Assembly (NCBI GenBank): GCA_021775375.1
Contig: JAJFHY010000188.1
Coordinates: 1 to 35,125 of the forward strand
Length of the DNA stretch: 35,125 nucleotides
Direction of reading: 5' to 3'
Source: Amylibacter sp.
GTDB taxonomy: Bacteria; Pseudomonadota; Alphaproteobacteria; Rhodobacterales; Rhodobacteraceae
Part shown: positions 16,155 to 31,974 of the stretch, piece by piece
Position numbering within the stretch: the first letter of the stretch is position 1
Layout of the letters: each line of letters begins with the position of its first letter
Program-made: the position numbers and the translations under genes
The notes under the pieces: model-generated
Seen by the model: only the letters and a program-made list of their open reading frames with translations
Databases searched by the model: none
Told to the model about the DNA's origin: nothing

Positions 16155-18485
16155 TTACTGCCCGTCTAAATAGGCCGGCAGCCACAAAACGATCTCTGGA
16201 AAGATAAAGATCAGAGTCAGGCCGATAAGCTGAATGACCATGAATTGCATCATTCCAAGATAGATGTCCTTAAGATCCCATTGGGGGACAACCCCCTTCA
16301 GGAAGTAGGCAGAGAGCGCCACGGGCGGACTGAGCCATGCGGTTTGCAGATTTACCGCTACAAGAATAGCAAACCATATGAGCATGTCGCTTTCTTTGGC
16401 AAAACCAAGATCAAGTTGCACGATTGTAGGCACCAATATCGGGATAATAATCAAAACAATCGGCACCCATTCAAGTGGCCAGCCAAGTAAGAAGATCAAC
16501 GCCATGATTAAGATCAGCATCATTACAGGCGATAAGTTCATCGACAGCAACACTTCCGTAAGCATTTTAGGTGTTCCTAAGTTACTAAATACCGCACCAA
16601 AGAAGTTAGATGCTGCAACCAAGAACATGATCAAAACTGACAATTCCAGCGTTTTGATCAATGCATCATAAAAGCCAGCTCGCGTAAATTTGCGATATGC
16701 CATCGACAACAACATGGAGCCAAAAGCACCACATGCTGCGGCTTCTGCAGGGGTTGCCCAGCCAGCCAAGATTGAACCAAGCGCGAAAGCGATCAGAACA
16801 GTTGGCGGCACAAGCCCCATAAAGAACTCATACCAAAGGTCAGAGAAATAGAATCCGCCCGGCTTCACTTTACGCGTCCAAGTATAAACAAAGTACATGA
16901 ACCCAATCCAAATCAATGGAATGAAAAACCCAGCCGTTGGGAAGATTGCCAATTTACCAGATATGCCCCATGCGATGAGCCATACAAATGCCACCAGTCC
17001 AAACATCACCGCACAGACTTCTGCAAAGTAGTAGGGCGAAGTTTCTGGTTGTTCATCTTCAGGTAGGATTGGACCCAAATTAGGGTTCAACCAACAGCGT
17101 CCAAGCGCGTACGCCAAATACAGCACGCCCAACATGACGCCCGGAACAATCGCTGCGCGGAATAGATCAGTCACTGGAATTTCTAGTACCGGGCCCATCA
17201 CGATCAACATGATTGATGGTGGGATCAAAATACCAAGAGTACCACCCGCAGTAATAGTGCCAGCGGCCAATTTCACATCATATCCAGACTTGATCATTGT
17301 ACGACCAGCCATAATGCCAAGGATTGTAACGGATGCCCCAACAATACCAGTTGCAGCTGCAAAAATAATGGAAACAAATAAAACGGCCACATAGAGCGCC
17401 CCACGCGTCCTGCTCATCATCAATTGTACGGCTGTGAACAAACGTTCCATCAAACCCGCTTTTTCCATCATGATACCCATGAACGTAAATAACGGAACCG
17501 CGACCAATTGATCATCCAACATCACTTGGTTGGTTTGCAGTGTTTGTAGGAAGAACGTTAGCTTAAAGTTTCCACCCCAAGCACCGAATACAAAGGCCAA
17601 GAAGATTAATGTAAATGAAATAGGGAAGCCGACGAAGATCGAAAACAACATCGCTGCCAACATGATCAAACCGATTGTTGGCTTTGAGAAGTTAAACAAA
17701 CCCGTGTCACCTAACATGTCCCCCAGCGGTAAGGTTTCTGGGAAAAATATACTTACAAAGGTAAGTGCCAAGCCAACAAAGTAAACCGGTAAAAATTTGA
17801 TGAACTTGTTCTCACGTTCCTTGCCCATTTGATGAAAAGCACGGAAAAGCTCTGGAAAACCTTGCAGAAACAATAAAAGCGCACCTATTGGCATAAATAT
17901 GCGTGCAGGCCACAGGTAAGGCGCCCAAGTGCTATCAGAGGCACGTTCCCAGCTAGATGGGTTGAACATATCTGTACCGAACGATTTTAATCCGTATTGG
18001 TAGGACGACCAAAAGAAGAACAACATCGCTGGAAAGTAGAACGCAAGATACAATGTAGCATCCACCGTTGCTTGCGTTCGAGTAGACCAATTGCGATACA
18101 AGAAATCAGCGCGGATATGTACACCACGCATCAATCCATAACCTGCAGCACCCATAAACAAAACGCCGCCAGTCATTCTACTGATGTCGTAAGCGAAAAG
18201 CGTCGGGCCAAGGCCGAGTGATCGCGCCAGATCGCCCATATCGTTTTCAACGAAGATGGCAAAAGCCTTTCGTGACACAACTTCATAGACCATGACAAAA
18301 ATCAATGGCACCATCAAAAGACAGATGATACGACCAGCCCAGTTGTTAATCACATCAATCCAAGCAGTTATTGGCCGTTGCCATGCCGTCATGTCTTCAG
18401 GGGTCTCACCTGGCTCTTCAGCCCTACGTTCGGCAATTAGCTCGTCGGTAATTTCCAGATTCTCTGGAATTTCCTCTTCGGCCAT
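16155..18485 (-). CDS. TRAP transporter fused DctQM permease
   Basis: A 776-residue fusion of the small (DctQ) and large (DctM) TRAP membrane subunits. Residues 1-45 are an acidic cytoplasmic tail; 50-220 form the four-helix DctQ part; from about 250 on is DctM with hallmark VGASVTILGIMAGRTMIKSG, GGTLGILIPPSIMLIVMG and, near the end, NLQTAWLSPPVALSAYFLKG. I chose ATG at 18485 because GGAGGA lies seven bases upstream; the frame is open further but gives a non-conserved leader. With the binding protein gene just upstream it forms a complete Na+-dependent importer. Beside the DHPS genes, a sulfonate or related hydroxy-acid substrate is likely, but not proven. Fused QM forms are less common than split ones and typical of the TakP-like group. 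Confidence 0.92.
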   Translation of the reverse strand: MAEEEIPENLEITDELIAERRAEEPGETPEDMTAWQRPITAWIDVINNWAGRIICLLMVPLIFVMVYEVVSRKAFAIFVENDMGDLARSLGLGPTLFAYDISRMTGGVLFMGAAGYGLMRGVHIRADFLYRNWSTRTQATVDATLYLAFYFPAMLFFFWSSYQYGLKSFGTDMFNPSSWERASDSTWAPYLWPARIFMPIGALLLFLQGFPELFRAFHQMGKERENKFIKFLPVYFVGLALTFVSIFFPETLPLGDMLGDTGLFNFSKPTIGLIMLAAMLFSIFVGFPISFTLIFLAFVFGAWGGNFKLTFFLQTLQTNQVMLDDQLVAVPLFTFMGIMMEKAGLMERLFTAVQLMMSRTRGALYVAVLFVSIIFAAATGIVGASVTILGIMAGRTMIKSGYDVKLAAGTITAGGTLGILIPPSIMLIVMGPVLEIPVTDLFRAAIVPGVMLGVLYLAYALGRCWLNPNLGPILPEDEQPETSPYYFAEVCAVMFGLVAFVWLIAWGISGKLAIFPTAGFFIPLIWIGFMYFVYTWTRKVKPGGFYFSDLWYEFFMGLVPPTVLIAFALGSILAGWATPAEAAACGAFGSMLLSMAYRKFTRAGFYDALIKTLELSVLIMFLVAASNFFGAVFSNLGTPKMLTEVLLSMNLSPVMMLILIMALIFLLGWPLEWVPIVLIIIPILVPTIVQLDLGFAKESDMLIWFAILVAVNLQTAWLSPPVALSAYFLKGVVPQWDLKDIYLGMMQFMVIQLIGLTLIFIFPEIVLWLPAYLDGQ

Positions 18486-18509
18486 TTTGATGTCCTCCCC
18501 TTTTTTATG

Positions 18510-18588
18510 TGCAAGCACCCGGATAAATACAGGTGCTTGCAGATAAAGCTTAGTTACAAGAGGTGGGGGCGCGCAAGGCGTCCCCACC
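18510..18588 (-). promoter_or_regulatory. Two intergenic hairpins between dctP and dctQM
   Basis: Hairpin 1, directly after the binding-protein gene: GGTGGGG (18562-18568) with CCCCACC (18582-18588). Hairpin 2: GGTGCTTGCA (18532-18541) with TGCAAGCACC (18510-18519), a perfect 10-base stem with a 12-base loop, just before the permease ribosome site. Neither has a strong T-run on the minus strand. Such hairpins between binding-protein and permease genes usually protect or partly terminate the mRNA so that more binding protein is made. Confidence 0.6.
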
Positions 18589-18597
18589 AAATTTTAA

Positions 18598-19701
18598 TTA
18601 TTTTACAGAATCTGCAAATGCTTTACCCAAAGCGGCGTTAGACGCTTGTGAGCCAGCCCAGTAAGGGACTGCGATAGCAGCAAAATCTTTTTGTGACTGC
18701 CAAACTTCAGCGAAAAATGCGTTTTCTGCGGAATTCTTTTCCAACGCTGCTTTCGCTGCATTCATATATGCTGGGAAGTAGTCAGCAGGTGTGTCATGCA
18801 AGATAACGCCGTGGTTTTCCGTCAAATCTTTCAATGCTTTACCGTTTTCGTAGATACGGTAAGACATAGATTTAGACAAAGAAGCGTTTGCAGCAACTTC
18901 AATGGCTTTTTGTTGCAATGGTGTCAGTGAATTGTACACATCTTTGTTCAAGTACAAGTCAGCATTCACCACAACCTGGTGCAAGCCCTGAAGGTAGTAG
19001 TGCTTCAGCACTTTTTGGAAGCCGAATACTGAGTCAGGCTTCGGGCAGCACCATTCAGCCGCGTCGATTGTACCTTTTTCCAAAGCAGGCAGGATATCAC
19101 CACCACCCATAGCAACAGAGGCCACACCAATATCCTTGTATGTTTGACCTGGGATACCAGGAGGTGTGCGGAAGCGGTATTTACGGAAATCATCCATGCT
19201 GTTGATAGGCTCTTTGAACCAACCCAAAGCTTCCGGGCCAACTGGTTGCAACATGAAACCTTTAATGTTCATGCCCATTTCGTCCCATAGTTGGTCGTAC
19301 AGCTCTTTCCCGCCACCAAACTGGAACCAAGACAAGAATGCGATGTTATCAATGCCAACACCGGCACCCGCAACAGGTGAACCAAACAGCATTGCTGCAG
19401 GGTGTTTACCTGACCAGTAGTGTGTCCATGCAAAGCCACCTTCAACAAGGCCACTGTCGACCGCATCAAGCGTTTCTTTCACGCCAACAACAGAACCTGC
19501 CGCCAACACTTCGATTTTCACTTCGCCGTCTGTTAGATCAAAAACGTCTTTTGCAAAGTCTTTCAACATCACCACTTCGTCGGCTTTTGCTGAAATCACT
19601 GATTGCACGCGAATGACTGTTTCCGCCCATGCGGAAGCAGCAAATGACAAGCCTACAGCGGTGATCGCCAGACCTGTCGTTACTTTCTTAAGTTTAAACA
19701 T
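18598..19701 (-). CDS. TRAP transporter substrate-binding protein DctP
   Basis: A 367-residue periplasmic protein. A Sec signal peptide ends around SFAASAWAE (residues 18-27). The DctP-family ligand region includes the conserved Arg in YRFRTPPGIPG, then GDILPALEKGTIDAAEWCCP; this Arg binds the carboxylate or another acid group of the ligand. The AAEW pattern and overall layout resemble the TakP (oxo/hydroxy acid) subgroup. GAGGAAA precedes the ATG. It is followed by two hairpins and the fused permease. The ligand is probably an acidic small molecule; DHPS or sulfolactate is suggested by neighbours only. Confidence 0.9.
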   Translation of the reverse strand: MFKLKKVTTGLAITAVGLSFAASAWAETVIRVQSVISAKADEVVMLKDFAKDVFDLTDGEVKIEVLAAGSVVGVKETLDAVDSGLVEGGFAWTHYWSGKHPAAMLFGSPVAGAGVGIDNIAFLSWFQFGGGKELYDQLWDEMGMNIKGFMLQPVGPEALGWFKEPINSMDDFRKYRFRTPPGIPGQTYKDIGVASVAMGGGDILPALEKGTIDAAEWCCPKPDSVFGFQKVLKHYYLQGLHQVVVNADLYLNKDVYNSLTPLQQKAIEVAANASLSKSMSYRIYENGKALKDLTENHGVILHDTPADYFPAYMNAAKAALEKNSAENAFFAEVWQSQKDFAAIAVPYWAGSQASNAALGKAFADSVK

Positions 19702-19740
19702 GGTTTCCTCCCATTTGTTTATGCCCTCTGTATTTTGTTA

Positions 19741-19766
19741 CTGGATTGCGAAGGCATAAAATCCAG
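19741..19766 (-). terminator. Stem-loop between terC and dctP
   Basis: CTGGATT (19741-19747) and AATCCAG (19760-19766) can form a 7-base stem with a 12-base loop. It follows the TerC gene and precedes the binding-protein gene on the same strand. A weak or partial terminator, or an mRNA processing site, is possible. Confidence 0.35.
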
Positions 19767-19789
19767 CTGTTGGTTATTCATTATTGCCC

Positions 19790-20449
19790 TTACCCCATTT
19801 CAATTCCCTCAATGAGCCCAAGCAGGGGCCCAATTCCGTGAGAGATATCAAAAAATCCGCGGTACATCATCTCACCCGCTACATAAACTAGAACCACTAG
19901 GCCCAGCCATGAAATCGAAGGATACTTTGTTAGTAAGTGCATTATCATTGTGGCGGCAAACGCCATCAAAATAATTGCAAAACCCAAACCAAACACCAGC
20001 ATCTGTGTATCACCGTCTGCAATTGCCGCAACTGCCAGCACGTTATCAAGCGACATCGATACATCCGCGATCATGATGGAGAGCAACGCAGAAAATAGTG
20101 TGCGGCGCGGCGCGCCTGTATATCCTGAGTGACTATCCCCCGCTGTGGCTAACGCCAATTCGGCCTCGGCATCAACATTCACGCGTATTTCCACAAATAA
20201 GCGCCAGCAAACCCAAAACAGCAGCAACGATCCGACAAATAAAATGCCTGGAACGTCCAGAAGCTTTGTTGCAACAACGGCAAAAATAATTCGTAGAACT
20301 GCCGCAATTAACATGCCGTAGAATATAGCTTTCTTACGCAATTCCGGCGACAGACCTGCCGCGGCCATGCCAATAATCAAAGCGTTATCACCTGACAAAA
20401 TAAGGTCGGCAATAATAATCTGACCATAATCTAAAAAGGTTTCGATCAT
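19790..20449 (-). CDS. TerC-family integral membrane protein (YjbE-like)
   Basis: A 219-residue membrane protein with about seven hydrophobic segments. The two TerC motifs are present: LILSGDNALIIGMAA at residues 16-30 and MIADVSMSLDNVLAVAA in the second half; their Asp and Asn residues line the proposed ion path. Family members include Mn(II) exporters (MntE-like YkoY/YceF) and tellurium-resistance proteins. The start overlaps the stop of the GMC oxidoreductase by four bases (ATGA), so the two are translationally coupled. A TerC inside a catabolic TRAP operon is unusual; whether it moves a metal, sulfite or something else cannot be told. Confidence 0.85.
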   Translation of the reverse strand: MIETFLDYGQIIIADLILSGDNALIIGMAAAGLSPELRKKAIFYGMLIAAVLRIIFAVVATKLLDVPGILFVGSLLLFWVCWRLFVEIRVNVDAEAELALATAGDSHSGYTGAPRRTLFSALLSIMIADVSMSLDNVLAVAAIADGDTQMLVFGLGFAIILMAFAATMIMHLLTKYPSISWLGLVVLVYVAGEMMYRGFFDISHGIGPLLGLIEGIEMG

Positions 20450-22047
20450 GTGTGAACATCCTCTAGAATCATTGCAGAAACTTTTTCGCCAATCATAATG
20501 GCCGGTGCGTTTGTGTTACCGCTTGTGATCGTTGGCATGATAGAGCAATCCGCCACACGCAAACACGCAATTCCGTGAACGCGCAGCCGTTCATCCACAA
20601 CAGCCATGGGGTCGTTACCCATTTTGCAGGTACCTGTCGGGTGATAGATTGTAACTGCGGTGTTGCGCGCCCACTCCAAGGTCGCCTCTTCATCATCAAA
20701 CGCGACTTCGCGGCCCGGTTCATATTCTTCGGTGACATGGGATTTAAGCGGTTCAAACTGCGCAATCTTACGTGCAACTTGTATACCCTTGACGATTGTT
20801 TTCTGATCAAGCGGTGTTGCCAGATAATTCGGGTGGATATGTGGATGATCCAAATAGTTGGCTGATTTTAGTTTCAACTCACCCGCACTTTCTGGGCGCA
20901 TTTGTAAAACTGAAGCAGTAAATGCCGAAAACTTATGTGGGCCTTCAACAGCGTTATTTGCACTGAAGGGTTGGATGTGAAACTGGATATCAGGTGTTTC
21001 AAGATGCGCTTCGGTTTTTAGAAATCCAGTACCAAGGCTTGCGGCCATTGTCATAGGGCCTGTTCTGTTTAGTGCATATTGCAGCGCAATCATGCCCTGT
21101 TTGAAATAGTTGTTCGTCTCAATGTTGATTGTAGACAGGTCTGTTTTAAAAATTGGCCGCGCTTGCAGGTGGTCCTGTAAATTTTTACCAACACCTTTCA
21201 GGTCTTTTTGAATATCTATGCCAAGTGGCTTCAAATCCTCTGCATCACCAATCCCGGACAACATCAAGATTTGAGGCGACCCGATGGCACCTGCAGAAAG
21301 GATGACCTCTTTGCGGGCATTAATTGAAATTGGATTACCTTTTCTAACAGCATCCACACCCGTGACGCGGCCTTCAGAAATATTCAGCTTACGAACCTGC
21401 GTATGTGTGATAATTTCCAGATTTTCGCGCCCACGCGCAGGTTTTAGATAGGCAACTGCAGAGCTGCACCGTTTACCTTTATCAAGAGTTAGCTGGAAAT
21501 ATCCGACACCTTCTTGATCCACACCATTGTAATCGGGATTGTTCTTATATCCTGCTGCCACCGCAGCATCCAACCATTTGTCTACAATATCCCGCTTAAG
21601 GGCTGTGGGGGATACGGATAACGGGCCATTTTGGCCACGCGCGTCACTCTGTGGCTCGCCTTTCCACGTTTCGGTGCGTTTAAAATAGGGTAAGACATCA
21701 TCCCACGCCCATCCCGTGTTGCCCAGTTGTCGCCAGTGATCAAAATCTTGCGATTGCCCACGAACATAAAGTAGGCCGTTAATAGAGCTTGACCCACCTA
21801 ATACCCTGCCACGTGGCCAGGGAATGGATCGGCCATTTATACCATCATCTGCATCTGTTTTATATTGCCAGTCAGTGTTCGGATTCCCCATGGTTTTAAA
21901 ATAACCAACAGGAATGTGGATCCATGGATTTGAGTCTTTTCCGCCTGCTTCCAACAATGCCACGCTGAAGCGGCCGTTTTCCGACAAACGGTTCGCAATT
22001 GCGCATCCGGCAGAGCCAGCGCCAACGACAACAAAGTCAAAATCCAA
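20446..22047 (-). CDS. GMC-family FAD oxidoreductase (choline dehydrogenase-like)
   Basis: A protein of about 533 residues. The FAD motif is VVVGAGSAGCAIANRL at the N-terminus, followed by GRVLGGSSSINGLLYVRG; the C-terminal catalytic region has the conserved His in YHPTGTCKMG and the Asn in GNTNAPAIMIGEK. GMC enzymes oxidise primary or secondary alcohols; BetA-like members are membrane-linked and pass electrons to the respiratory chain. No ATG is available: TTG codons at 22068, 22050 and 22047 are in frame, and 22047 follows AAGGGG at five to six bases and gives the typical start (L/M)DFDFVVVGAG. Divergent from the IclR gene and coupled to terC. It may oxidise an alcohol imported by the TRAP system, possibly a DHPS-related compound. 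Confidence 0.88.
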   Translation of the reverse strand: MDFDFVVVGAGSAGCAIANRLSENGRFSVALLEAGGKDSNPWIHIPVGYFKTMGNPNTDWQYKTDADDGINGRSIPWPRGRVLGGSSSINGLLYVRGQSQDFDHWRQLGNTGWAWDDVLPYFKRTETWKGEPQSDARGQNGPLSVSPTALKRDIVDKWLDAAVAAGYKNNPDYNGVDQEGVGYFQLTLDKGKRCSSAVAYLKPARGRENLEIITHTQVRKLNISEGRVTGVDAVRKGNPISINARKEVILSAGAIGSPQILMLSGIGDAEDLKPLGIDIQKDLKGVGKNLQDHLQARPIFKTDLSTINIETNNYFKQGMIALQYALNRTGPMTMAASLGTGFLKTEAHLETPDIQFHIQPFSANNAVEGPHKFSAFTASVLQMRPESAGELKLKSANYLDHPHIHPNYLATPLDQKTIVKGIQVARKIAQFEPLKSHVTEEYEPGREVAFDDEEATLEWARNTAVTIYHPTGTCKMGNDPMAVVDERLRVHGIACLRVADCSIMPTITSGNTNAPAIMIGEKVSAMILEDVHT

Positions 22048-22073
22048 CAAGTTCCCCTTATATATCAAAAATT

Positions 22074-22974: not shown

Positions 22975-24003
22975 CTAAAGCGGTACCCGGGCAAGTGACG
23001 ACCTTAGAACAACTTCCGTTTTAAATTCCAGACTTGAAACGGTATTATCATTCGACAATTTAGACAGTAATATCCGCGCTGCTGCTTTCCCCATTTCGAT
23101 TTGCGGAACACGTACGGTTGTCAAAGCAGGATCAACGACAGATGCAAGCCCTATATCATCAAAACCGGTGATCGATATTTGCTGTGGGACGCTTATTCCA
23201 CGCTCTCGCGCTCTGGTTATGGCACCGGCCGCCAGAACATCATTGCCGCAAATAATAACCGATGGAACCTCGGGGCCTTCCATGATTTCATCAAAGGCAT
23301 TAGCACTTTCAGCCAACATGTAAGGTGATTCAACTATACGCAGCAACCTTGCACCATGACCATAAACCTTGATGGCATTTTTGACACCTGCTATCCGGTT
23401 TTTCGCGCGATCATTATCCTTTGATATACCTGCGATCATCGCAATATTCCGATGGCCGTATCCAAGAACACATGTTGCTATCTCAAATGCCGCCTTTTGG
23501 TTGTCAAATCCAACAAAAAGCTGGGCAGGATCATCCTTATAGCACCAGGATATTACATATGGAACACCGCGAAGGGCCAAAAAGTCGGTGGTTTTCTTGG
23601 GCCGATCCGTCCCGATAAGCAGTAATCCATCGGCACCATGGGCCATCAGAGAACGGATTTGGGTGTATTCAGCCTCTGTACTATAACCCGTGCTGGCAAC
23701 AAGCATTGTCACACCGGCGTCTGACAACTCCTCTTGAAAAGCCTGAATCCCATTGGCAAACATAGCATTTGACATAGATGGAATAACTGCGCCGATCGTA
23801 TTTGTACGGTTCGAAGCAAGAGCGCGCCCTCCGAAATGAGGTGTATACCCAAGAGCTTCAATCGCTTTTTGAATACGCTCATGCGTTGCTTTGGCGACTT
23901 TATTGGGCATGTTGATCGAGCGGGATATCGTAGCCGTAGACACACGCGCCACACGTGCCACATCTTCCAGTGTCGGAGCGTCTTTCATTGTCATTCGTTC
24001 CAT
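22975..24003 (-). CDS. LacI-family transcriptional regulator
   Basis: A 342-residue LacI/GalR regulator. The DNA-binding headpiece is TLEDVARVARVSTATISRSIN followed by the hinge GYTPHFGGRALASNRT; the periplasmic-binding-like effector core runs from TIGAVIPSM to the end, with ITGFDDIGLASVVDPALTTV. Three Met codons lie at the start (24003, 23994, 23988); 23988 gives the most typical N-terminus (MKDAPTLEDV). It is divergent from hpsN. The 41-base palindrome between them is its probable operator and also covers its own -35-like hexamer, implying autoregulation. The inducer may be DHPS or sulfolactate; that is inference from context. It is convergent with the IclR gene. Confidence 0.92.
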   Translation of the reverse strand: MERMTMKDAPTLEDVARVARVSTATISRSINMPNKVAKATHERIQKAIEALGYTPHFGGRALASNRTNTIGAVIPSMSNAMFANGIQAFQEELSDAGVTMLVASTGYSTEAEYTQIRSLMAHGADGLLLIGTDRPKKTTDFLALRGVPYVISWCYKDDPAQLFVGFDNQKAAFEIATCVLGYGHRNIAMIAGISKDNDRAKNRIAGVKNAIKVYGHGARLLRIVESPYMLAESANAFDEIMEGPEVPSVIICGNDVLAAGAITRARERGISVPQQISITGFDDIGLASVVDPALTTVRVPQIEMGKAAARILLSKLSNDNTVSSLEFKTEVVLRSSLARVPL

Positions 24004-24046
24004 TCCACGTTTTCATGCTGTTACAAATTCAACCAACATTCGATTA

Positions 24047-24075
24047 ATCTTAATAAGACTTTCGTAAAATGTAAA
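24047..24075 (-). promoter_or_regulatory. Putative promoter of the LacI-family gene
   Basis: On the minus strand TTTACA (24070-24075, five of six matches to TTGACA) is followed after exactly 17 bases by TAAGAT (24047-24052, four of six matches to TATAAT). The -35 hexamer lies inside the palindromic operator. Confidence 0.5.
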
Positions 24076-24107
24076 CGCTTGCATAAATTATGCAAGCGTT
24101 TACATTT
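24067..24107. promoter_or_regulatory. 41-bp perfect palindrome: double LacI-type operator
   Basis: Twenty-base arms around a single central A at 24087 are perfectly symmetric. Inside lie two LacI-type sites, TGTAAACGCTTGCA (24070-24083) and its mirror TGCAAGCGTTTACA (24091-24104). Each has the central CG and flanking pattern of LacI-family operators. Their centres are 21 bases apart, two helical turns. Outer TTTACA hexamers on both sides serve as -35-like elements for the divergent LacI and hps genes; on the plus side TAAGAT follows at 24120-24125 with a 15-base spacer. Confidence 0.8.
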
Positions 24108-24193
24108 ATACCTGTGAATTAAGATTCGTTTGGTAAAAAACTGGATACTTCCATCTTTCCGCGACCAGATATCTACAAATAGGACCTACTAAA

Positions 24194-25501
24194 ATGGCTA
24201 GAAAATATCTTAAAAAAGCTCAAAAAACGGCAATGACCGACGCAAGTGATGTGCGTGAAACTGTTCAGAATATTCTGACTGATATCGAAGCTGGTGGCGA
24301 TGAGGCAGCATTAAAATATGCTGAAAAATTTGATCAGTATCAGGGTAGCATACTGTTGAACCAAGATGAAATTGCGGCGGCCTCGGCACTTGTATCACAA
24401 AAGCTCAAGGACGATATAGCCTATGCACATGATAACGTACGCCGTTTTGCTGAAACTCAAAAACAGACCATGCAAGATGTCGAATTAGAGGTCGTACCCG
24501 GCTTGATCGCAGGTCAAAAAGCTATTCCGTGCCGGGCCGCGGGCTGTTATGTTCCGGGCGGGCGTTATAGCCATGTTGCCAGTGCAATCATGACTGTTAC
24601 AACGGCAAAAGTTGCGGGTTGCCAACATATCACTGCCTGTTCGCCACCACGAATTGGTGAAGGGGTTGCACCTGCAATCATCTATGCGGCAAATCTTTGT
24701 GGGGCAGACAAAATCCTGTCTATGGGTGGTGTTCAGGGCGTTGCATCCATGGCTTTTGGTCTGTTTGGGCTACCCAAGGCCGATATTTTAGTCGGACCCG
24801 GTAACCAGTTTGTAGCCGAGGCCAAACGCATTCTGTTTGGTCGCGTCGGCATCGACATGATCGCAGGCCCAACAGACAGCCTGATACTGGCCGATCATAC
24901 CGCCGATCCGTTTATCGTCGCAACAGATCTCGTAGGCCAAGCCGAACATGGCTATAACTCTCCTGTTTGGCTGGTTACGGACAATCAGGCATTGGCCGAA
25001 AAGGTTATGGAAATCGTCCCTGGGCTTATTGACGATCTACCCGAGTTGAACCGCATGAACGCAGAAGCTGCATGGCGCGATTATGCCGAGGTTATCGTTT
25101 GCGATGACCGCGAAGAAATGGCGGCAACATCGGATGATTACGCACCAGAACACCTTTCTGTACAGGCCGAAGATTTGCCTTGGTGGTTGGAACGCCTGCA
25201 ATGTTACGGTTCACTGTTTTTAGGCGAAGAAACCACCGTGGCCTTTGGCGACAAAGCGTCAGGGACAAACCACGTTCTGCCAACATCGAAATCCGCCAGA
25301 TACACAGGTGGACTTTCAGTACATAAATACATGAAGATCGTTACATGGCAAAAATCCACGCGGGCAGGATCAAAACCCGTGGCTGAAGCCACTGCGCGAA
25401 TTTCACGACTGGAAGGGATGGAGGGTCACGCCCGTACGGCTGACGCGCGGTTACGCAAATACTTCCCTGAAGAATCTTTTGACTTAGCAGGAAACTCATA
25501 A
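24194..25501 (+). CDS. hpsN: Sulfopropanediol 3-dehydrogenase HpsN
   Basis: A 435-residue protein of the histidinol dehydrogenase family. Zn-ligand motifs GQAEHG, YAPEHLS and SGTNHVLPT are all present, as is the NAD-binding region VPGGRYSHVASAIMT and GGVQGVASMAFG. The sequence and operon mates show it is HpsN, not HisD: HpsN oxidises (R)-2,3-dihydroxypropane-1-sulfonate in two NAD-dependent steps to (R)-sulfolactate. AGGA lies nine bases before the ATG. It heads hpsNOP-uspA-comDE and is controlled by the palindromic LacI operator about 90 bases upstream. DHPS is a major sulfonate excreted by marine diatoms, which fits a marine Roseobacter. Confidence 0.9.
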   Translation: MARKYLKKAQKTAMTDASDVRETVQNILTDIEAGGDEAALKYAEKFDQYQGSILLNQDEIAAASALVSQKLKDDIAYAHDNVRRFAETQKQTMQDVELEVVPGLIAGQKAIPCRAAGCYVPGGRYSHVASAIMTVTTAKVAGCQHITACSPPRIGEGVAPAIIYAANLCGADKILSMGGVQGVASMAFGLFGLPKADILVGPGNQFVAEAKRILFGRVGIDMIAGPTDSLILADHTADPFIVATDLVGQAEHGYNSPVWLVTDNQALAEKVMEIVPGLIDDLPELNRMNAEAAWRDYAEVIVCDDREEMAATSDDYAPEHLSVQAEDLPWWLERLQCYGSLFLGEETTVAFGDKASGTNHVLPTSKSARYTGGLSVHKYMKIVTWQKSTRAGSKPVAEATARISRLEGMEGHARTADARLRKYFPEESFDLAGNS

Positions 25502-25504
25502 CCA

Positions 25505-26260
25505 GTGGAATTAGAACTGTTCGATATGCACGGAAAGGTGGCTTGCGTCACCGGGGCCAGCAGCGGCCTTGGTCGTTCTGCCGCCACGCTTTTAGCCAAA
25601 GCCGGTGCGAAGGTTGTGGGTGTTGCACGCCGATCAGATCAATTGGAACGTTGGCAGGAAGAGGCCGGTGGCAACACAGCCGTCGTTATTGCCGACCTCA
25701 GCGATCGTTCCAGCCTGAAGACCACTGCAAATGCCGTGGAAGCACAATTCGGGCCGCCGGATATTTTGATCAATGCGGCAGGCATCAATACGCGCGAGCA
25801 CGCTGATGCGGTAAGTGACGAAGGCTGGGACATGACAATGAACCTGAACCTGGCAGCCCCGTTCTTTCTGGCCCAAGCCTTTGTTCCGGCAATGAAAGCC
25901 AAACATTGGGGGCGGATCGTGAACTTTGCGTCTCTGCAATCGCGCAGAGCCTTTGAAAACGGCATCAGTTACGGGGCCTCAAAGGGGGCTGTGGAACAAA
26001 TGACCCGCGCCATGGCCGAGGCTTGGTCAGGGCATGGCATCACCGCTAACGCCCTAGCCCCCGGCTTCTTTCGCACCGAGCTAACGGGGCCCGTGTTTAA
26101 CAATCCGGTTCTGGCAGAGCGCAATGCCGCGCAAACCTGCATCGGTCGCAATGGCGAGCCAAGCGATCTGGACGGCCCATTGATGTTCTTTTGCACAGAT
26201 GCCTCGGCCTATGTCACAGGGCAAGTTCTGTTTGTTGATGGAGGCTATACCGCAAAATGA
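25505..26260 (+). CDS. hpsO: SDR-family DHPS dehydrogenase HpsO
   Basis: A 251-residue short-chain dehydrogenase. The cofactor motif TGASSGLGRSAA, NAAG, and the catalytic Ser-Tyr-Lys (Ser in FASLQS, then YGASK) are in place. In known hps clusters HpsO and HpsP together isomerise the DHPS enantiomers by oxidation and re-reduction at C2 so that HpsN can use both. The start is GTG at 25505, three bases after the hpsN stop; AGGAAA lies some distance upstream. The stop overlaps the hpsP ATG by four bases. Confidence 0.82.
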   Translation: MELELFDMHGKVACVTGASSGLGRSAATLLAKAGAKVVGVARRSDQLERWQEEAGGNTAVVIADLSDRSSLKTTANAVEAQFGPPDILINAAGINTREHADAVSDEGWDMTMNLNLAAPFFLAQAFVPAMKAKHWGRIVNFASLQSRRAFENGISYGASKGAVEQMTRAMAEAWSGHGITANALAPGFFRTELTGPVFNNPVLAERNAAQTCIGRNGEPSDLDGPLMFFCTDASAYVTGQVLFVDGGYTAK

Positions 26261-27261
26261 AAGCGCTGGTTTATACGGGTGTTGAAACACTGGAGTACCG
26301 CGACGTGCCGCAACCTGCACCGGGTGCGGGTGAAGCGTTGATCCGGGTTATGGCCTCGGGTATTTGCGGCTCTGATATGCATGCTTACATGGGCCATGAC
26401 GACCGTCGCCCTGCCCCTTTGATACTGGGCCATGAGGCCGCCGGTGTTGTCGTGGGTGGCCCCGATGATGGCCGCCGTGTGACACTTAATCCGCTGGTGA
26501 CATGTAATAATTGCCCGGCTTGTACGTCCGGGCGCACAAATCTTTGCGCAAAACGTCAAATCATCTCGATGCCACCACGTGAAGGCGCATTTGCGGATTT
26601 TGTCACCATGCCGCGCAGCAATTTGATAACTGTACCCGACACAACCAGTCTAAGTCACGCAGCCCTGACCGAGCCGATGGCATGCGGCTGGCATGGGTCA
26701 AGGCTTGCCAATGCCGCGTTAAATCTTCCAATGGGTGACATGTGTTGCCTTGTTATTGGCGGTGGGGCCATTGGTGTTGGTGCTGCCCTGTCACTGGCTG
26801 CACAGAAAGCGACAAATATAACTGTGATCGAGCCCAATGACATACGGCGCGAATGCTTACAAAACGTATCGGGTTTCATTACCTGCGATCCAACGGATAG
26901 CATTGTACCACAATATAGTAGTGTCGATATTGTCATCGATGCAGTGGGTTTTGCCGCCACCCGCAAAACCGCTTGTGCTTATGTCCGGCCGGGGGGCGTG
27001 ATTGTGCATATAGGGCTAGGTGAGGCCACTGGAGGGTTGGATATACGGCGCATGACGTTGCAAGAGATCCAGTTCATCGGCACCTATACCTATACCGCAG
27101 CAGACTTCATAGCGACGGCTGATGCTATTTTTTCAGGTCAACTCGGACCGCTCAACTGGATTGAAAGCCGGCCATTGGCTGACGGACAAGGAGCTTTTAG
27201 AGATATCCGTTCAAACCGGGTTGCAGCCCCCAAGATCATTCTTATACCGGAACACACATAA
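26257..27261 (+). CDS. hpsP: Zn-dependent (MDR) DHPS dehydrogenase HpsP
   Basis: A 334-residue medium-chain dehydrogenase. Catalytic Zn ligands lie in GICGSDMHAY and LILGHEAAG; the structural Zn cysteines are in CNNCPACTSGRTNLC; the nucleotide-binding motif is VIGGGAIGVGAALSL. Based on order and family it is HpsP, the partner of HpsO in DHPS isomerisation. The ATG overlaps the hpsO stop. Confidence 0.82.
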   Translation: MKALVYTGVETLEYRDVPQPAPGAGEALIRVMASGICGSDMHAYMGHDDRRPAPLILGHEAAGVVVGGPDDGRRVTLNPLVTCNNCPACTSGRTNLCAKRQIISMPPREGAFADFVTMPRSNLITVPDTTSLSHAALTEPMACGWHGSRLANAALNLPMGDMCCLVIGGGAIGVGAALSLAAQKATNITVIEPNDIRRECLQNVSGFITCDPTDSIVPQYSSVDIVIDAVGFAATRKTACAYVRPGGVIVHIGLGEATGGLDIRRMTLQEIQFIGTYTYTAADFIATADAIFSGQLGPLNWIESRPLADGQGAFRDIRSNRVAAPKIILIPEHT

Positions 27262-27337
27262 TCATAGTCGCCCCTAGACTCTAAGGCTATTGGGGATCAA
27301 GATCAGCGACTTAAAGCCACATAATAAAGGAACGACC

Positions 27338-27745
27338 ATGTACCAAAAAATTATCGTATCACTTGCTCTGGACCACGGTATTGGGCAAAAGGCCATTGAA
27401 GCGGCGTTGCAACTTAGGTCAGTGGGCGGTGAAATCATCGCCGTGCACGTTCATGAGCCCCTGCAAGGGTCTATAGCAGGCTCATATATGCCCGAAGACG
27501 CGGCCCAGATCGCTGTTAAAAACGCCAAAGAGCAGTTGGCCGAACGGTTGACCGGGACACCTGATATCAAGGCGGTTCTGATTAAAGGCCATTCTGGTCG
27601 CGCGATCACAAACTACGCCGAAGAGATAGGTGCGGATTGTATTATTGTGGGTTCCCACAAACCGGGCCTTGCCGATTATTTTCTGGGATCAACAGCTGCA
27701 CGCGTTGTTCGCCATGCACCTTGCTCCGTTCATGTTCTTCGGTAA
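27338..27745 (+). CDS. Universal stress protein (UspA family)
   Basis: A 135-residue single UspA domain. It starts with MYQKIIVSLALDHG, and the ATP-binding-type motif GSHKPGLADYFLGSTAARVVRHAPCSVHVLR (seen as two blocks, GSHKPG and STAARVVRHAPCSVHV) closes it. I chose ATG at 27338 with AAAGGAA six bases upstream; an upstream in-frame start would lack a ribosome site. UspA proteins accompany TRAP transporters (for example TeaD with TeaABC) and sulfonate gene clusters, where they may tune uptake. Confidence 0.88.
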   Translation: MYQKIIVSLALDHGIGQKAIEAALQLRSVGGEIIAVHVHEPLQGSIAGSYMPEDAAQIAVKNAKEQLAERLTGTPDIKAVLIKGHSGRAITNYAEEIGADCIIVGSHKPGLADYFLGSTAARVVRHAPCSVHVLR

Positions 27746-27784: not shown

Positions 27785-27831
27785 CGCACCAAAAGTAAAA
27801 GACATACGTACTCATGAAGGAGAAACAAAAC

Positions 27832-28329
27832 GTGTCAATAAACACAAAAATCGTCGACGATTTCGTCGCAAACGGTGTGAATTTCATAACGACCGTACCT
27901 TGCAAACAACTGGCAGGTGTCATCGACGAAATTGAAGCCCGTGAAGAAATTTACCACATCCCTTCAAACAAAGAGGATGAGGGCATCGGGCTTTGCGCGG
28001 GGGCTTTTATGGGCGGCAAACGTCCGGCTATCATCATGCAAAACACCGCTATAGGCGTGACCGTCAACACGTTGGTCACATTGACCCAATTTTACCGGAT
28101 GCCGTTACCGATGTTGATTTCTTATCGGGGCGAACTGGGCGAACCGGTTGCTTGTCAGGTGGAAATGGCAGTTCACACAAAAGCGTTGCTGAACCAACTT
28201 CATATTCCCACCTATCACTTTCACAAGGATAGCGATGCGGATGAACTGGACGCAATCCTGAAACACACATTCATGTGCAATAAACCGGTCGCAATTCTGA
28301 CTGATGCATCATTCTGGAAAGGTTACTGA
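27832..28329 (+). CDS. comD: Sulfopyruvate decarboxylase alpha subunit ComD
   Basis: A 165-residue PYR-type thiamine-diphosphate domain. The conserved Glu that activates the cofactor is in SNKEDEGIGLCAG; TTVPCKQLAG near the N-terminus and YRGELGEPVACQ match ComD. With ComE it decarboxylates 3-sulfopyruvate to sulfoacetaldehyde. I chose GTG at 27832 because AAGGAG lies nine bases upstream; an ATG at 27814 is in frame but has no ribosome site and overlaps that AAGGAG. Confidence 0.9.
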   Translation: MSINTKIVDDFVANGVNFITTVPCKQLAGVIDEIEAREEIYHIPSNKEDEGIGLCAGAFMGGKRPAIIMQNTAIGVTVNTLVTLTQFYRMPLPMLISYRGELGEPVACQVEMAVHTKALLNQLHIPTYHFHKDSDADELDAILKHTFMCNKPVAILTDASFWKGY

Positions 28330-28331
28330 TT

Positions 28332-28886
28332 ATGATCCGTTCTGAAATCCTGCGCGACATCGCGCCTGTAATTCGCGACCAACTTGTTGTCTGCAACATT
28401 GGTCTTCCAAGCCAAGAGCTTCATATGATCGACGATCAATCAAGTAACTTCTATATGCTGGGGACAATGGGCCTGTCTTCCTCCATCGGTCTTGGCGTTG
28501 CTTTGGCACAAGATAAGAAGGTTATTTCAATCGACGGCGACGGCTCGGTCCTAACCAACTTTGGCACATTGCCGACTATCGCCAATAACGTAGCTGACAA
28601 TTATATCCTGCTGATCATCGACAATGGCAGCTATGGCTCTACCGGTGATCAGCCGACTTATGCGGGTATGAAAACTTCGCTTACTGCTGTGGCCAAGGCC
28701 TGTGGTTGTGAAAACGTTGTTGAATGTCAGGCCAAGGACACCAAACAGGCCCTGACCGATGCGCTTGCCGGCGACAAGATGACCATAATCGTGGCTAAAT
28801 GCGAAAGCGGTAATATCAAGGTTCCGGTTATCACCATGGACCCTGTTGTGATCCGTGATAGGTTCATGAAACAGGTTCAAGCCTAA
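28332..28886 (+). CDS. comE: Sulfopyruvate decarboxylase beta subunit ComE
   Basis: A 184-residue PP-type thiamine-diphosphate domain. The cofactor Mg motif is GDGSVLTNFG ... IIDNGSYGSTG (GDG with the distal Asn). It starts two bases after the comD stop. In archaea these enzymes serve coenzyme M synthesis; in bacteria with hps or slc genes they serve sulfonate degradation, as here. Confidence 0.92.
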   Translation: MIRSEILRDIAPVIRDQLVVCNIGLPSQELHMIDDQSSNFYMLGTMGLSSSIGLGVALAQDKKVISIDGDGSVLTNFGTLPTIANNVADNYILLIIDNGSYGSTGDQPTYAGMKTSLTAVAKACGCENVVECQAKDTKQALTDALAGDKMTIIVAKCESGNIKVPVITMDPVVIRDRFMKQVQA

Positions 28887-28893
28887 GATTTTG

Positions 28894-28918
28894 GGGGCCG
28901 CGCTGTGATTGCGGCCCC
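28894..28918 (+). terminator. GC-rich stem-loop after comE
   Basis: GGGGCCGC (28894-28901) and GCGGCCCC (28911-28918) form a perfect 8-base stem with a 9-base loop, eight bases after the comE stop. There is no T-run, and the next gene has its own AAGGAA, so this may be an attenuating or mRNA-protecting hairpin within the operon rather than a full terminator. Confidence 0.55.
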
Positions 28919-28933
28919 ACTCAAGGAATAAAA

Positions 28934-30055
28934 ATGCCCTGTGCGCGTAAAATACAATCCAGCGAAGATGCCCGCCTATTGGCAAAAAAGCGTCTGCCAT
29001 GGATGGTGTTTGATTATATCGACGGTGCAGCAGGTATTGGCCACGGTGAAGCATTGAACCGTACCGCCTTGCGCGATTTACAGTTGCAGCCACGAATATT
29101 AACAAATGTCAAAACCCGTAATTTAGGCGTGCGCGTCTTTGACCATGACGGTAAAGTTCCGTTCGGGATCAGCCCGATGGGTATGTGTAACCTGTCAACA
29201 CCTGGGGCAGATCTGATGCTGGCCCGGATCGCTGCGAAAAACTGCGTGCCAGTGGGCGTGTCAACCGTCGCCTCAACATCACTTGAAACCATGATCGAGG
29301 TTGCTGAAGGCCACGCATGGTTCCAGCTATATTTCAGCGGCGACGGCAGCACAGCCAAACGACTGGTTGCACGGGCAAAAGCCGCAGGGTACCGCACTTT
29401 AGTGTTAACGCTTGATGTGCCCGAGGTCGGACGCCGCCCGCGCGAATTGCGCCACGGATTCAAAATGCCATTCAAAATCGGCCCCAGCCAGTTTGTGGAT
29501 TTCGCGCTGCACCCACGCTGGTCACTGTCAGCACTCTTCAGGGGGCGTCCGGAAATGGCCAATTTCAGCGAGCCTGGCAATGAATTTGATCGCACCGAAA
29601 GCCGTGCTGCAGCTGATTGGTCTTACTTGGAAAGCCTGCGCGCCGAATGGCCCGGCAATTTGGTGGTCAAAGGTGTGTTAAGCGTAGAAGATGCTACCCG
29701 TCTTAAGGCGGTGGGTGTTGACGCCATTCAAGTATCCAACCACGGCGGCAGGCAGTTGGACAGCGCCCCGCCACCCATTCTGATGCTTGAAAAAATCCGT
29801 GCGGCTGTCGGCAAAGACTACCCATTATTCTACGATTCAGGCCTACGTTCAGGCGAAGATATCGTCAAAGCCTACGCAATGGGGGCTGATTTCGTGTTCT
29901 TCGGTCGCCCGCTTCTATATGCCATGGCCGCAATGTCAGAGCCCGGGCTTAAGCAACTTTGGAACGTCTATTCAGAGGAAACCAGCCTTACTTTGGCACA
30001 GCTTGGCAAAACCGCGATGCGGTCACTTTCAGAAAGCCTTGTTTCCACAACCTAG
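28934..30055 (+). CDS. slcD: FMN-dependent alpha-hydroxy-acid dehydrogenase (probable SlcD)
   Basis: A 373-residue member of the lactate oxidase / glycolate oxidase family. FMN and substrate motifs are visible: FGISPMGMCNLSTPGAD, WFQLYFSGD, VKGVLSVEDA, VSNHGGRQLDS (catalytic His) and YDSGLRSGEDIVKA with FGRPLLY. Such enzymes oxidise 2-hydroxy acids and pass electrons to quinone or cytochrome. Next to hpsNOP and comDE it most likely oxidises sulfolactate to sulfopyruvate, the role given to SlcD in marine roseobacters; plain L-lactate or glycolate dehydrogenase is the alternative. AAGGAA lies seven bases before the ATG. It follows a hairpin and is convergent with the arsenite pump gene. Confidence 0.8.
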   Translation: MPCARKIQSSEDARLLAKKRLPWMVFDYIDGAAGIGHGEALNRTALRDLQLQPRILTNVKTRNLGVRVFDHDGKVPFGISPMGMCNLSTPGADLMLARIAAKNCVPVGVSTVASTSLETMIEVAEGHAWFQLYFSGDGSTAKRLVARAKAAGYRTLVLTLDVPEVGRRPRELRHGFKMPFKIGPSQFVDFALHPRWSLSALFRGRPEMANFSEPGNEFDRTESRAAADWSYLESLRAEWPGNLVVKGVLSVEDATRLKAVGVDAIQVSNHGGRQLDSAPPPILMLEKIRAAVGKDYPLFYDSGLRSGEDIVKAYAMGADFVFFGRPLLYAMAAMSEPGLKQLWNVYSEETSLTLAQLGKTAMRSLSESLVSTT

Positions 30056-30081: not shown

Positions 30082-31137
30082 TTAGTTTTGCGGGAAATGA
30101 TCGCGGGTTTTGTTGGCGAATGCGACAAGAGATAACATCACCGGCACCTCGACCAGCACCCCGACAACCGTTGCAAGGGCGGCTCCTGAATTCAGCCCGA
30201 ACAGGCTGATGGCAACAGCCACGGCAAGTTCAAAGAAGTTCGATGTCCCTATCATCGCGCAAGGGGCGGCTATTCTGAACGGTACTCGCATGGCCCATGC
30301 GGCTGCATATGCCACAGCAAAAATACCGTAAGATTGCAGCAAAAGCGGTATGGCGATCAACACGATCAGAAACGGTTGCGCTAAGATCACGCCGCCTTGA
30401 AAGCCAAACAGCAACATAACCATCGTTAAAAGGCCGATTATCGAGAACGGTTTTAATTTTGCGGTAAAGCCTGAAACGGCCTCGGTATTGTTTTTGCGCC
30501 CTAATAAAAGTTTTCGTGTGGCAATCCCCACGATCAGCGGCACCACGATATAAAGCACGACAGACAGGACCAGCGTATCCCATGGCACCGGAATATTGGT
30601 CACGCCAAGAAGCAAAGCCACAATCGGGGCATAGGCAAAGATCATGATCACATCATTCACACTGACCTGAACAAGGGTGTAATTTGCATCGCCCCGTGTC
30701 AGCTGTGACCAGACAAATACCATCGCAGTACAGGGAGCCGCCCCCAAAAGGATAAGCCCGGCTATATAGGCATCTGCATCACTTGCAGACATCATCCCCG
30801 CATAAATATATTTGAAAAACACAATCCCAAGAAGCGCCATAGTAAAGGGTTTTATCAACCAATTAACCACAAGCGTGATCATCAAGCCTTTGGGCTGATC
30901 TGCAACATGGGTAATGCTGCCAAAATCAACCGAGATCATCATAGGATAAACCATAGCCCAGATAAGAATGGCAACGACCAGATTGACATGGGCATATTCA
31001 ATTGCAGCAAGTAACGCAAAAAGCTCGGGATACAACTGACCCGCGAGGATGCCAATAAAAATAGCAAGGGCGACCCATACAGAAAGCCATTTCTCAAAAA
31101 TGCCGATGGATGGTGTATCCTGTGTTATATCAGTCAT
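30082..31137 (-). CDS. arsB: ACR3-family arsenite efflux permease
   Basis: A 351-residue protein with about ten membrane segments. The ACR3 hallmark with the essential Cys, [21 protein letters not shown], is near residue 130, and [14 protein letters not shown] is the second conserved block. It exports As(OH)3 in exchange for protons. It lies nine bases after the ArsR-ArsC fusion and is co-transcribed with it. The name acr3 is also used. Confidence 0.93.
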
Positions 31138-31146
31138 TTACTTATC

Positions 31147-31974
31147 CTATATCTTGTTGATTTCATCGACCCGCGCCTGCAACGATACCCTGTCGAGCGT
31201 ATCAAACGGCAAAGCGGCAAAGGCCCGTATCCGGTTGTGTAATTGTTCGTAAGCTTGCAGAAAGGCTCGCTGCTTTTCTGCGTCTGTGCCTGTGGCCTTG
31301 ACCGGGTCAGGCAAGCCCCAATGGGCGCTGATGGGTTGGCCCGGCCAAAACGGGCATTCCTCGTTTGCCGCCTGATCACAAACGGTAAAGACGAAATCTA
31401 TTTCAGGCGCATCAGGCGCTTGAAATTCCGCAATGCTTTTGGCGCGCAGCAGATCCGTGTCGTGCTCCTTGGATTGCAGCAGTGCAATGGCAAACGGGTT
31501 CAGCACGCTTCCCGCATGTGTGCCTGCGGAATAGGCTTCGAAACGATCCCCTGCTTCGCGGCGCAACAGGGCCTCGGCAAAGATTGATCGGGTGGAATTT
31601 CCTGTGCAGATAAAAAGGGCATTGCGTTTTTGCTTTGGATTACTGTTCGTTTCACTCGCGGATACTTCAGAGAGCGGCCAGCACATCTCACCACGACCGC
31701 GACAACAATCACGAAACATATAGTCCATTACTTGCTCAACAGCGGTAATTTCGGCGCAATAGCGCAACGATGTGCCGTGGCGGGTCTGCGTGATCAACCC
31801 AACCCGTTTAAGAGCCGCAAGATAGACTGATAATGTACTGGGCTTAATATCCAATGCTGCCGCCAACTCACCCGCCGGAACAGCATCGGGGTACCGGCGC
31901 ACAAGCAGGCGAAAGACCGCCATTCGCTGGGCGTGACCTAAGGTAGTCAGGCGATCAAGAACCATTATTTCCAT
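31147..31974 (-). CDS. ArsR-ArsC fusion: arsenic repressor plus arsenate reductase
   Basis: A 275-residue fusion. Residues 1-98 are an ArsR winged helix (LTTLGHAQRMAVFRLL, IKPSTLSVYLAALKRVGLI). A Cys cluster, C90, C91 and C98 in DCCRGRGEMC, ends the domain and probably senses As(III). After a linker (100-117) comes a low-molecular-weight phosphatase-type ArsC with CTGNSTR (CX5R, C123-R129), YSAGTHAG and FTVCDQAANEECPFWPG. The protein would repress the operon until As(III) binds, and reduce arsenate for the ACR3 pump. ATG at 31974 has no clear ribosome site; ATG at 31965 is an alternative. An inverted repeat just upstream is the likely operator. Confidence 0.88.
   Translation of the reverse strand: MEIMVLDRLTTLGHAQRMAVFRLLVRRYPDAVPAGELAAALDIKPSTLSVYLAALKRVGLITQTRHGTSLRYCAEITAVEQVMDYMFRDCCRGRGEMCWPLSEVSASETNSNPKQKRNALFICTGNSTRSIFAEALLRREAGDRFEAYSAGTHAGSVLNPFAIALLQSKEHDTDLLRAKSIAEFQAPDAPEIDFVFTVCDQAANEECPFWPGQPISAHWGLPDPVKATGTDAEKQRAFLQAYEQLHNRIRAFAALPFDTLDRVSLQARVDEINKI

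Follow-up and report, generated by a model that had tools for sequence, protein, structure and literature searches.

A perfect palindrome between hpsR and the hps genes of an Amylibacter genome as a probable pair of HpsR operators with an embedded promoter

The 41-bp perfect palindrome that separates hpsR from the hps genes in the window, i.e., the whole stretch of 35,125 nucleotides from Amylibacter sp. analysed here, is probably the shared control element of these two divergent transcription units, with the hps promoter embedded in two operators of the LacI-family regulator HpsR. Judging from the sequence comparisons below, we give this reading a probability of roughly three in four. Phytoplankton and marine bacteria use DHPS, a marine sulfonate, as a major currency between them. 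In the proposed mechanism, HpsR dimers would bind both 14-bp operators, two helical turns apart on the same face of the DNA. The inner half of operator A would serve as the hps -35 element and the outer half of operator B as the -10 element, the operator distance of 21-23 bp thereby doubling as a sigma70 spacer of 16-18 bp. By analogy, HpsR seated on the operators would cover both hexamers and exclude RNA polymerase until a compound of the DHPS pathway, acting as inducer, frees the DNA. The other two operator halves may form a weaker mirror promoter for hpsR, through which HpsR would also repress itself.

The hpsR gene (22975..24003, minus strand, 342 aa) was identified from its open reading frame, a domain search and an annotated R. 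pomeroyi counterpart. Its product combines an N-terminal LacI HTH domain (PF00356, 2.5e-15) with a periplasmic-binding-like C-terminal domain (PF13377, 7.1e-29), as is typical of the LacI/GalR family. The R. pomeroyi gene SPO0590, located beside hpsKLMNOP, is annotated as hpsR of the LacI family (PMC4334477). On the plus strand, the palindrome is followed by an hpsN-like gene of the histidinol-dehydrogenase family (24194..25501), named from its family and the gene order, and by genes for an hpsO-like SDR dehydrogenase (25505..26260) and an hpsP-like zinc alcohol dehydrogenase (26257..27261), both recognized by open reading frame and domain search, as well as an hpsQ-like universal stress protein (27290..27745). 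The cluster continues on the same strand with the sulfopyruvate decarboxylase subunits (27814..28886; comD 27814-28329, comE 28332-28886) and an slcD-like FMN-dependent dehydrogenase (28934..30055, open reading frame and domain search), this extension (27814-30055) suggesting a route from sulfolactate to sulfoacetaldehyde. An SBF-family transporter (30082-31137) adjoins a gene at 31147-31974 that fuses an ArsR-like HTH to a low-molecular-weight phosphatase domain resembling arsenate reductase. Positions 16155-22068 hold a TRAP transporter (a fused DctQM and a DctP), a TerC-family protein and a GMC oxidoreductase similar to choline dehydrogenase; a search of this region for a second HpsR-type site with up to 2 mismatches found none. 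In the window, hpsR and hpsN have no TRAP genes between them.

The palindrome (24067..24107, strand-neutral), found by an inverted-repeat search and evident from the letters, consists of two arms of 20 nt each (24067-24086 and 24088-24107), which are 100% complementary and separated by the single A at 24087. By hand arithmetic, a stretch of 35,125 bases would contain a palindrome of this kind with a chance of ~3e-8 (35,125 x 4^-20). It contains two predicted LacI-type operators of 14 bp that are conserved in the family, operator A on the hpsR side (TGTAAACGCTTGCA, 24070..24083, plus strand) and operator B on the hps side (TGCAAGCGTTTACA, 24091..24104, plus strand). They are mirror copies, 21 bp apart from start to start. 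The sequence-only reading of this DNA had described just such a perfect 41-bp palindrome with two LacI-type sites 21 bp apart, and both the letters and the repeat search bear it out. Both sites, like the consensus of the 73 pairs described below, are even palindromes with a central CG, the form of LacI/GalR-type operators. That operator-type sites are a general feature of the genome was considered and rejected, as operators A and B are the only two exact matches to TGYAARCGYTTRCA in the assembly (3.2 Mb, 91% complete); allowing one mismatch, the genome-wide number showed no excess over a reversed control pattern (16 vs 16). Almost symmetrically around the palindrome lies an outer 9-bp inverted repeat (AATCTTAAT at 24046-24054 and ATTAAGATT at 24118-24126), which includes two TAAGAT hexamers discussed below; by eye, it was not seen in the five relatives inspected.

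We searched 295 genomes of the family, one per genus and all from this single family, for HpsR with a cut-off of E <= 1e-80. Matches were found in 80 of them, 81 in total owing to two copies in G183, and all 81 upstream regions were read. A pair was accepted at distances of 14-45 bp if its two sites together had no more than 4 mismatches to a search pattern that takes A or G at position 12. Under this rule, 73 of the 81 regions carry the operator pair, at 22 bp in 44 loci, 23 bp in 19 and 21 bp in 10, and no locus among the 73 has its best pair at any other distance within 14-45 bp. These counts do not represent independent events because the genomes share ancestry. The pairing of LacI operators two helical turns apart is thus conserved in relatives, which supports this part of the sequence-only reading. 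With a stricter rule of at most 2 mismatches per site, the pair remains in 71/81 regions, or in 72/83 after adding L121 and L122 from a search of the genus. In one locus (G089), the pair is preceded by a third site at a distance of 23 bp. No pair was detected in 8 of the 81 regions.

The commonest forms among the 73 pairs are TGTAAGCGCTTGCA for operator A and TGTAAGCGCTTACA for operator B. Operator A is the reverse complement of operator B in only 8 pairs, and perfect symmetry over the whole length, with the centre base of odd-length elements scored as one mismatch, occurs in the window's pair alone (1/73). The perfect symmetry is therefore a local embellishment of an element with two operators that is itself conserved. 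The same comparison bears on the notion that the palindrome acts as an RNA hairpin or terminator instead of a DNA site. A perfect 20-bp inverted repeat would suit a hairpin, yet a terminator-like site was not found, and 72 of the 73 loci lack the whole-pair symmetry while both 14-bp sites persist; we regard this notion as extremely improbable.

The distribution of the locus is patchy. Within the genus of the window, the regulator is present in just 3 of 33 genomes, and the other two copies are 50-51% identical; one of these two relatives (L122) has a single operator. A gammaproteobacterial metagenome-assembled genome (L005) carries hpsR and hpsN in divergent orientation with two mirror-image sites 22 bp apart, the regulator being 61% and hpsN 83% identical. 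The patchy presence in the genus and the gammaproteobacterial copy suggest that the hps locus may have spread horizontally.

The operator pair follows the regulator. HpsR is encoded opposite hpsN within 9 kb for 72 of the 81 matches, and 68 of these 72 have the pair. Where the two lie within 600 bp, 22 of 24 regulators have it, and where they lie farther apart, up to 9 kb, 46 of 48. In R. pomeroyi, the two genes are separated by TRAP transporter genes, and the same may hold for these 48 distant loci. Nine HpsR matches have no hpsN opposite within 9 kb, and 5 of them carry the pair. Conversely, neither the pair nor a site with at most 1 mismatch was found in the obtainable upstream DNA of any of the 27 hps loci without an adjacent HpsR. 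The hpsN set behind this count comprises the best 105 matches (E 4.0e-207 or better) in 99 genomes, 27 of which lack an adjacent HpsR; it left out lower-ranked matches, some of 71% identity, and second hpsN copies where one copy is regulated, except for the stretch beside G187 C2. Several of the 27 upstream stretches end at contig ends (after 192 bases in G102, 438 in G133, 3450 in G281, 3899 in G064 and 4216 in G209). Given 68/72 with and 0/27 without an adjacent HpsR, the paired sites most likely belong to HpsR. Joint control of the regulator and the DHPS genes, as first suggested from the window, agrees with the placement of the pair between both units and with its tracking of HpsR.

The operators also contain hexamers at promoter distance. 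We predict the hps -35 element, TTGCAT (24079..24084, plus strand), in the inner half of operator A and the hps -10 element, TACATT (24101..24106, plus strand), in the outer half of operator B and the 2 nt that follow it, with a spacer of 16 bp. For hpsR, mirror symmetry of the palindrome places a predicted -35, TTGCAT, at 24090..24095 (minus strand) and a predicted -10, TACATT, at 24068..24073 (minus strand) in the outer half of operator A; the latter position scores above 2 in 52 of the 73 loci. Because the two sites are mirror copies here, the two predicted promoters of the window are identical and the palindrome is complete. Among the relatives, TTGC of the predicted hps -35 is present in 73/73 pairs, and position 12 is G in every operator A and A in 72 of the 73 operators B. 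The operator distances of 21, 22 and 23 bp correspond to promoter spacers of 16, 17 and 18 bp.

We scanned all positions across the 73 loci with simple self-made sigma70 weights for -35 and -10 elements. The best -35 offset falls in operator A (mean 3.65, above 2 in 73/73). For a -10 on the hps strand, just one offset has a positive mean, and it falls within operator B's outer half (mean 3.96; 56/73 loci above 2). Two other offsets resemble a -35, one base before operator A (68/73 above 2, mean 2.10) and the start of operator B (36/73), neither having a conserved -10 at 16-18 bp in the 73 loci. On the opposite strand, the predicted hpsR -35 position reads TTACA, with TTA and not TTG, in 55 of the 73 relatives, and the mirror promoter is presumably weaker because TTACA replaces TTGCA. 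Most alphaproteobacterial sigma70 promoters analysed lack T at -7, and TTG is well conserved across most species (PMC8407463); the corresponding place of the predicted hps -10 holds T in 48/73 loci. The embedded hps promoter of the window matches only 7/12 bases, by hand count, of the E. coli consensus, and a simple promoter scan of the window did not list it among its matches.

The sequence-only reading had placed the promoters differently, taking the outer TTTACA hexamers as -35 elements and TAAGAT as the -10 on each side, so that the operators would cover the -35 regions only. The letters are indeed there, with TAAGAT at 24120-24125 (plus strand) and 24052-24047 (minus strand) and spacers of 15 bp on the hps side and 17 bp on the hpsR side, and the simple promoter scan passes only the hpsR-side TTTACA-17-TAAGAT (9/12), a kind of match of which shuffled sequences average 0.9. 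The placement itself is not conserved. At 15, 16 and 17 bp after operator B, a -10-like score above 2 is reached in only 3, 8 and 2 of the 73 loci, respectively; the hps-side spacer of 15 bp also argues against it, and so does the base at which the outer hexamer begins, operator B position 9, which is C in 68/73. Leader lengths, based on automatic start-codon choice by a simple self-made rule, provide a further argument. In G151, 24 nt separate operator B from the hps ATG, and in G146, whose pair is weak, 17 nt separate operator A from that of hpsR. Promoters at the outer hexamers are impossible at these two loci, as their transcripts would start downstream of the initiation codon, whereas the embedded promoter fits both leaders; the window's own distances to the start codons (89 and 66 or 75 nt) fit either placement. 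Taken together, we find the outer placement very doubtful, although for the window considered by itself the hpsR-side version stays plausible.

Loci that have lost one operator offer the best test of the embedded promoter, since the bases there can no longer be ascribed to binding of the repressor. In the 83-locus set (the 81 HpsR regions plus L121 and L122), 9 loci have a single operator under the rule of at most 2 mismatches, including G212 and G123, which count as weak pairs among the 73, and two (G029 and G145) have no operator at all. G196, with both sites within 2 mismatches, is not a single-operator locus. All four loci with only operator B (G185, G102, G079 and G137) have a TTG 17 or 18 bp upstream of its TACA. 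With only operator A, a TA follows the -35 by 17 or 18 bp in four of five loci (G113, G183b, G212 and L122), and G123 has no TA at 16-18 bp. Thus, the other promoter half is retained at the right distance in 8/9 single-operator loci, the chance rates in the same DNA being 0.048 for each TTG and 0.149 for each TA.

These loci also help in weighing the view that cooperativity between HpsR dimers alone sets the spacing, with TTG and TA reflecting tuned operator strength, i.e., a weak A and a strong B, and no promoter. This view draws on LacI-family site pairs in general, whose distances show maxima at 13, 22 and 32 bp, as well as on the RafR and ScrR regulogs, which have double sites only, at 21-22 bp (PMC4052901). 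Cooperativity alone, however, would leave the retained TTG or TA at promoter distance in eight of the nine loci unaccounted for. A weak operator A could equally arise by changes in its outer half, yet it is position 12 that is invariably G, while position 3 is T in 69/73, and no locus has its best pair at 31-33 bp. We consider cooperativity as the sole cause rather unlikely; cooperative binding and an embedded promoter are compatible, and both explanations can be true.

GANTC is the methylation motif of CcrM. In the window, such a site, GATTC (24123..24127, plus strand), lies downstream of the predicted hps promoter, and 52 of the 73 pair loci have a GANTC within 24 nt after operator B, leaving 21 without one in that stretch. 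Among 768 5-mers with one wildcard, GA.TC shows the largest excess downstream of operator B, with 52 vs 5.9 in shuffles. Extended to the first 40 nt, 53 loci have the site, which begins 8-10 bases past operator B in 33 of them, i.e., at the predicted start of the embedded promoter; the GATTC of the window lies ten bases farther downstream than this commonest place. All four bases occur in the middle position (A in 33/54 sites, T or G in 13/54), and C precedes the motif in 29/54. The hpsR side has GANTC in only 2/73 loci. The 24-nt stretch lacks the site in the gammaproteobacterial L005 and in L121 and L122 from the same genus.

We rejected the idea that GANTC is common to intergenic DNA or to promoters at large. 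As background, we used twenty 20-kb stretches around hps loci, with crude calling of open reading frames and the hps promoters included, where intergenic DNA has 1.76 GANTC per kb and 3.5% of 41,599 24-nt windows contain one. None of 31 other predicted promoters in these stretches, a small control, has the site; only 3 hps promoters pass the same promoter filter, 2 of them with GANTC. The genome encodes GcrA (4.1e-49) and a CcrM-like methyltransferase, a 365-aa open reading frame with a RAMA domain (profile PF18755 for the CcrM tail). By eye, this frame contains a DPPY motif.

Tentatively, and more doubtfully than the operator assignment, the hps promoter might be a joint switch of LacI-type repression and CcrM methylation in many genera of the family, the GANTC near the predicted start tying a nutrient operon to replication-coupled methylation. 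The link could run through GcrA, or HpsR could shield the site and leave a heritable mark. Of the cell-cycle-regulated starts of Caulobacter, 96 carry a GANTC in the 50 bp upstream of them (PMC4287350), whereas here the motif lies at or after the predicted start, which speaks against a simple GcrA reading. The shifted place of the site in the window and its absence from the 24-nt stretch in 21 of the 73 loci, in L005 and in L121 and L122 count against such a reading as well. The extended GcrA motif YGAKTCK proposed for Caulobacter does not describe the hps sites, whose middle base is mostly A; Brevundimonas has no such extended preference, only a slight one for C before GANTC (PMC7987155). A limited literature search of titles and abstract openings found no earlier report of GANTC at hps promoters.

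The present analysis puts forward HpsR operators for dozens of genera, together with a simple explanation of their spacing of 21-23 bp, namely that the operators would double as -35 and -10 elements. The conserved GANTC makes a link between a catabolic operon and DNA methylation directly testable in this group. As far as we have seen, the predicted HpsR operator, the apparent embedded promoter that would explain the spacing, and the GANTC site are new in detail; the available text of two papers mentions a regulator and no operator (PMC11131964; PMC11382572).

Among known systems, a repressor gene and the gene that it controls have divergent, overlapping promoters covered by two operators in the tetR/tetA region of Tn10. 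The two-operator divergent layout is alike, with a LacI-family instead of a TetR repressor and another spacing. The hpsR-hpsKLMNOPQ locus of Ruegeria pomeroyi DSS-3 (SPO0590 onwards) likewise has a LacI-family HpsR beside DHPS genes, its available description giving no operators (PMC4334477); in the window, hpsR directly faces hpsN. LacI-family pairs at about 22 bp are already known and have been interpreted as cooperative binding (PMC4052901), which makes the operator pair as such nothing unusual. The RafR regulog of Enterobacteriales and the ScrR regulog of Burkholderiales share with it a conserved pair of even palindromes with central CG at 21-22 bp, i.e., two helical turns (PMC4052901); the hps pair serves divergent sulfonate genes, frequently has GANTC downstream and seems to embed a promoter. 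Bidirectional promoters of E. coli also seat RNA polymerase both ways on near-symmetrical DNA, as at PacrA/acrR with its auto-repressor, and share one -10 (PMC12825309). The predicted -10 elements of the hps region are instead outermost, 33 bp apart from start to start in the window, which speaks against the shared -10 type, and its -35 elements are innermost with two operators overlaid.
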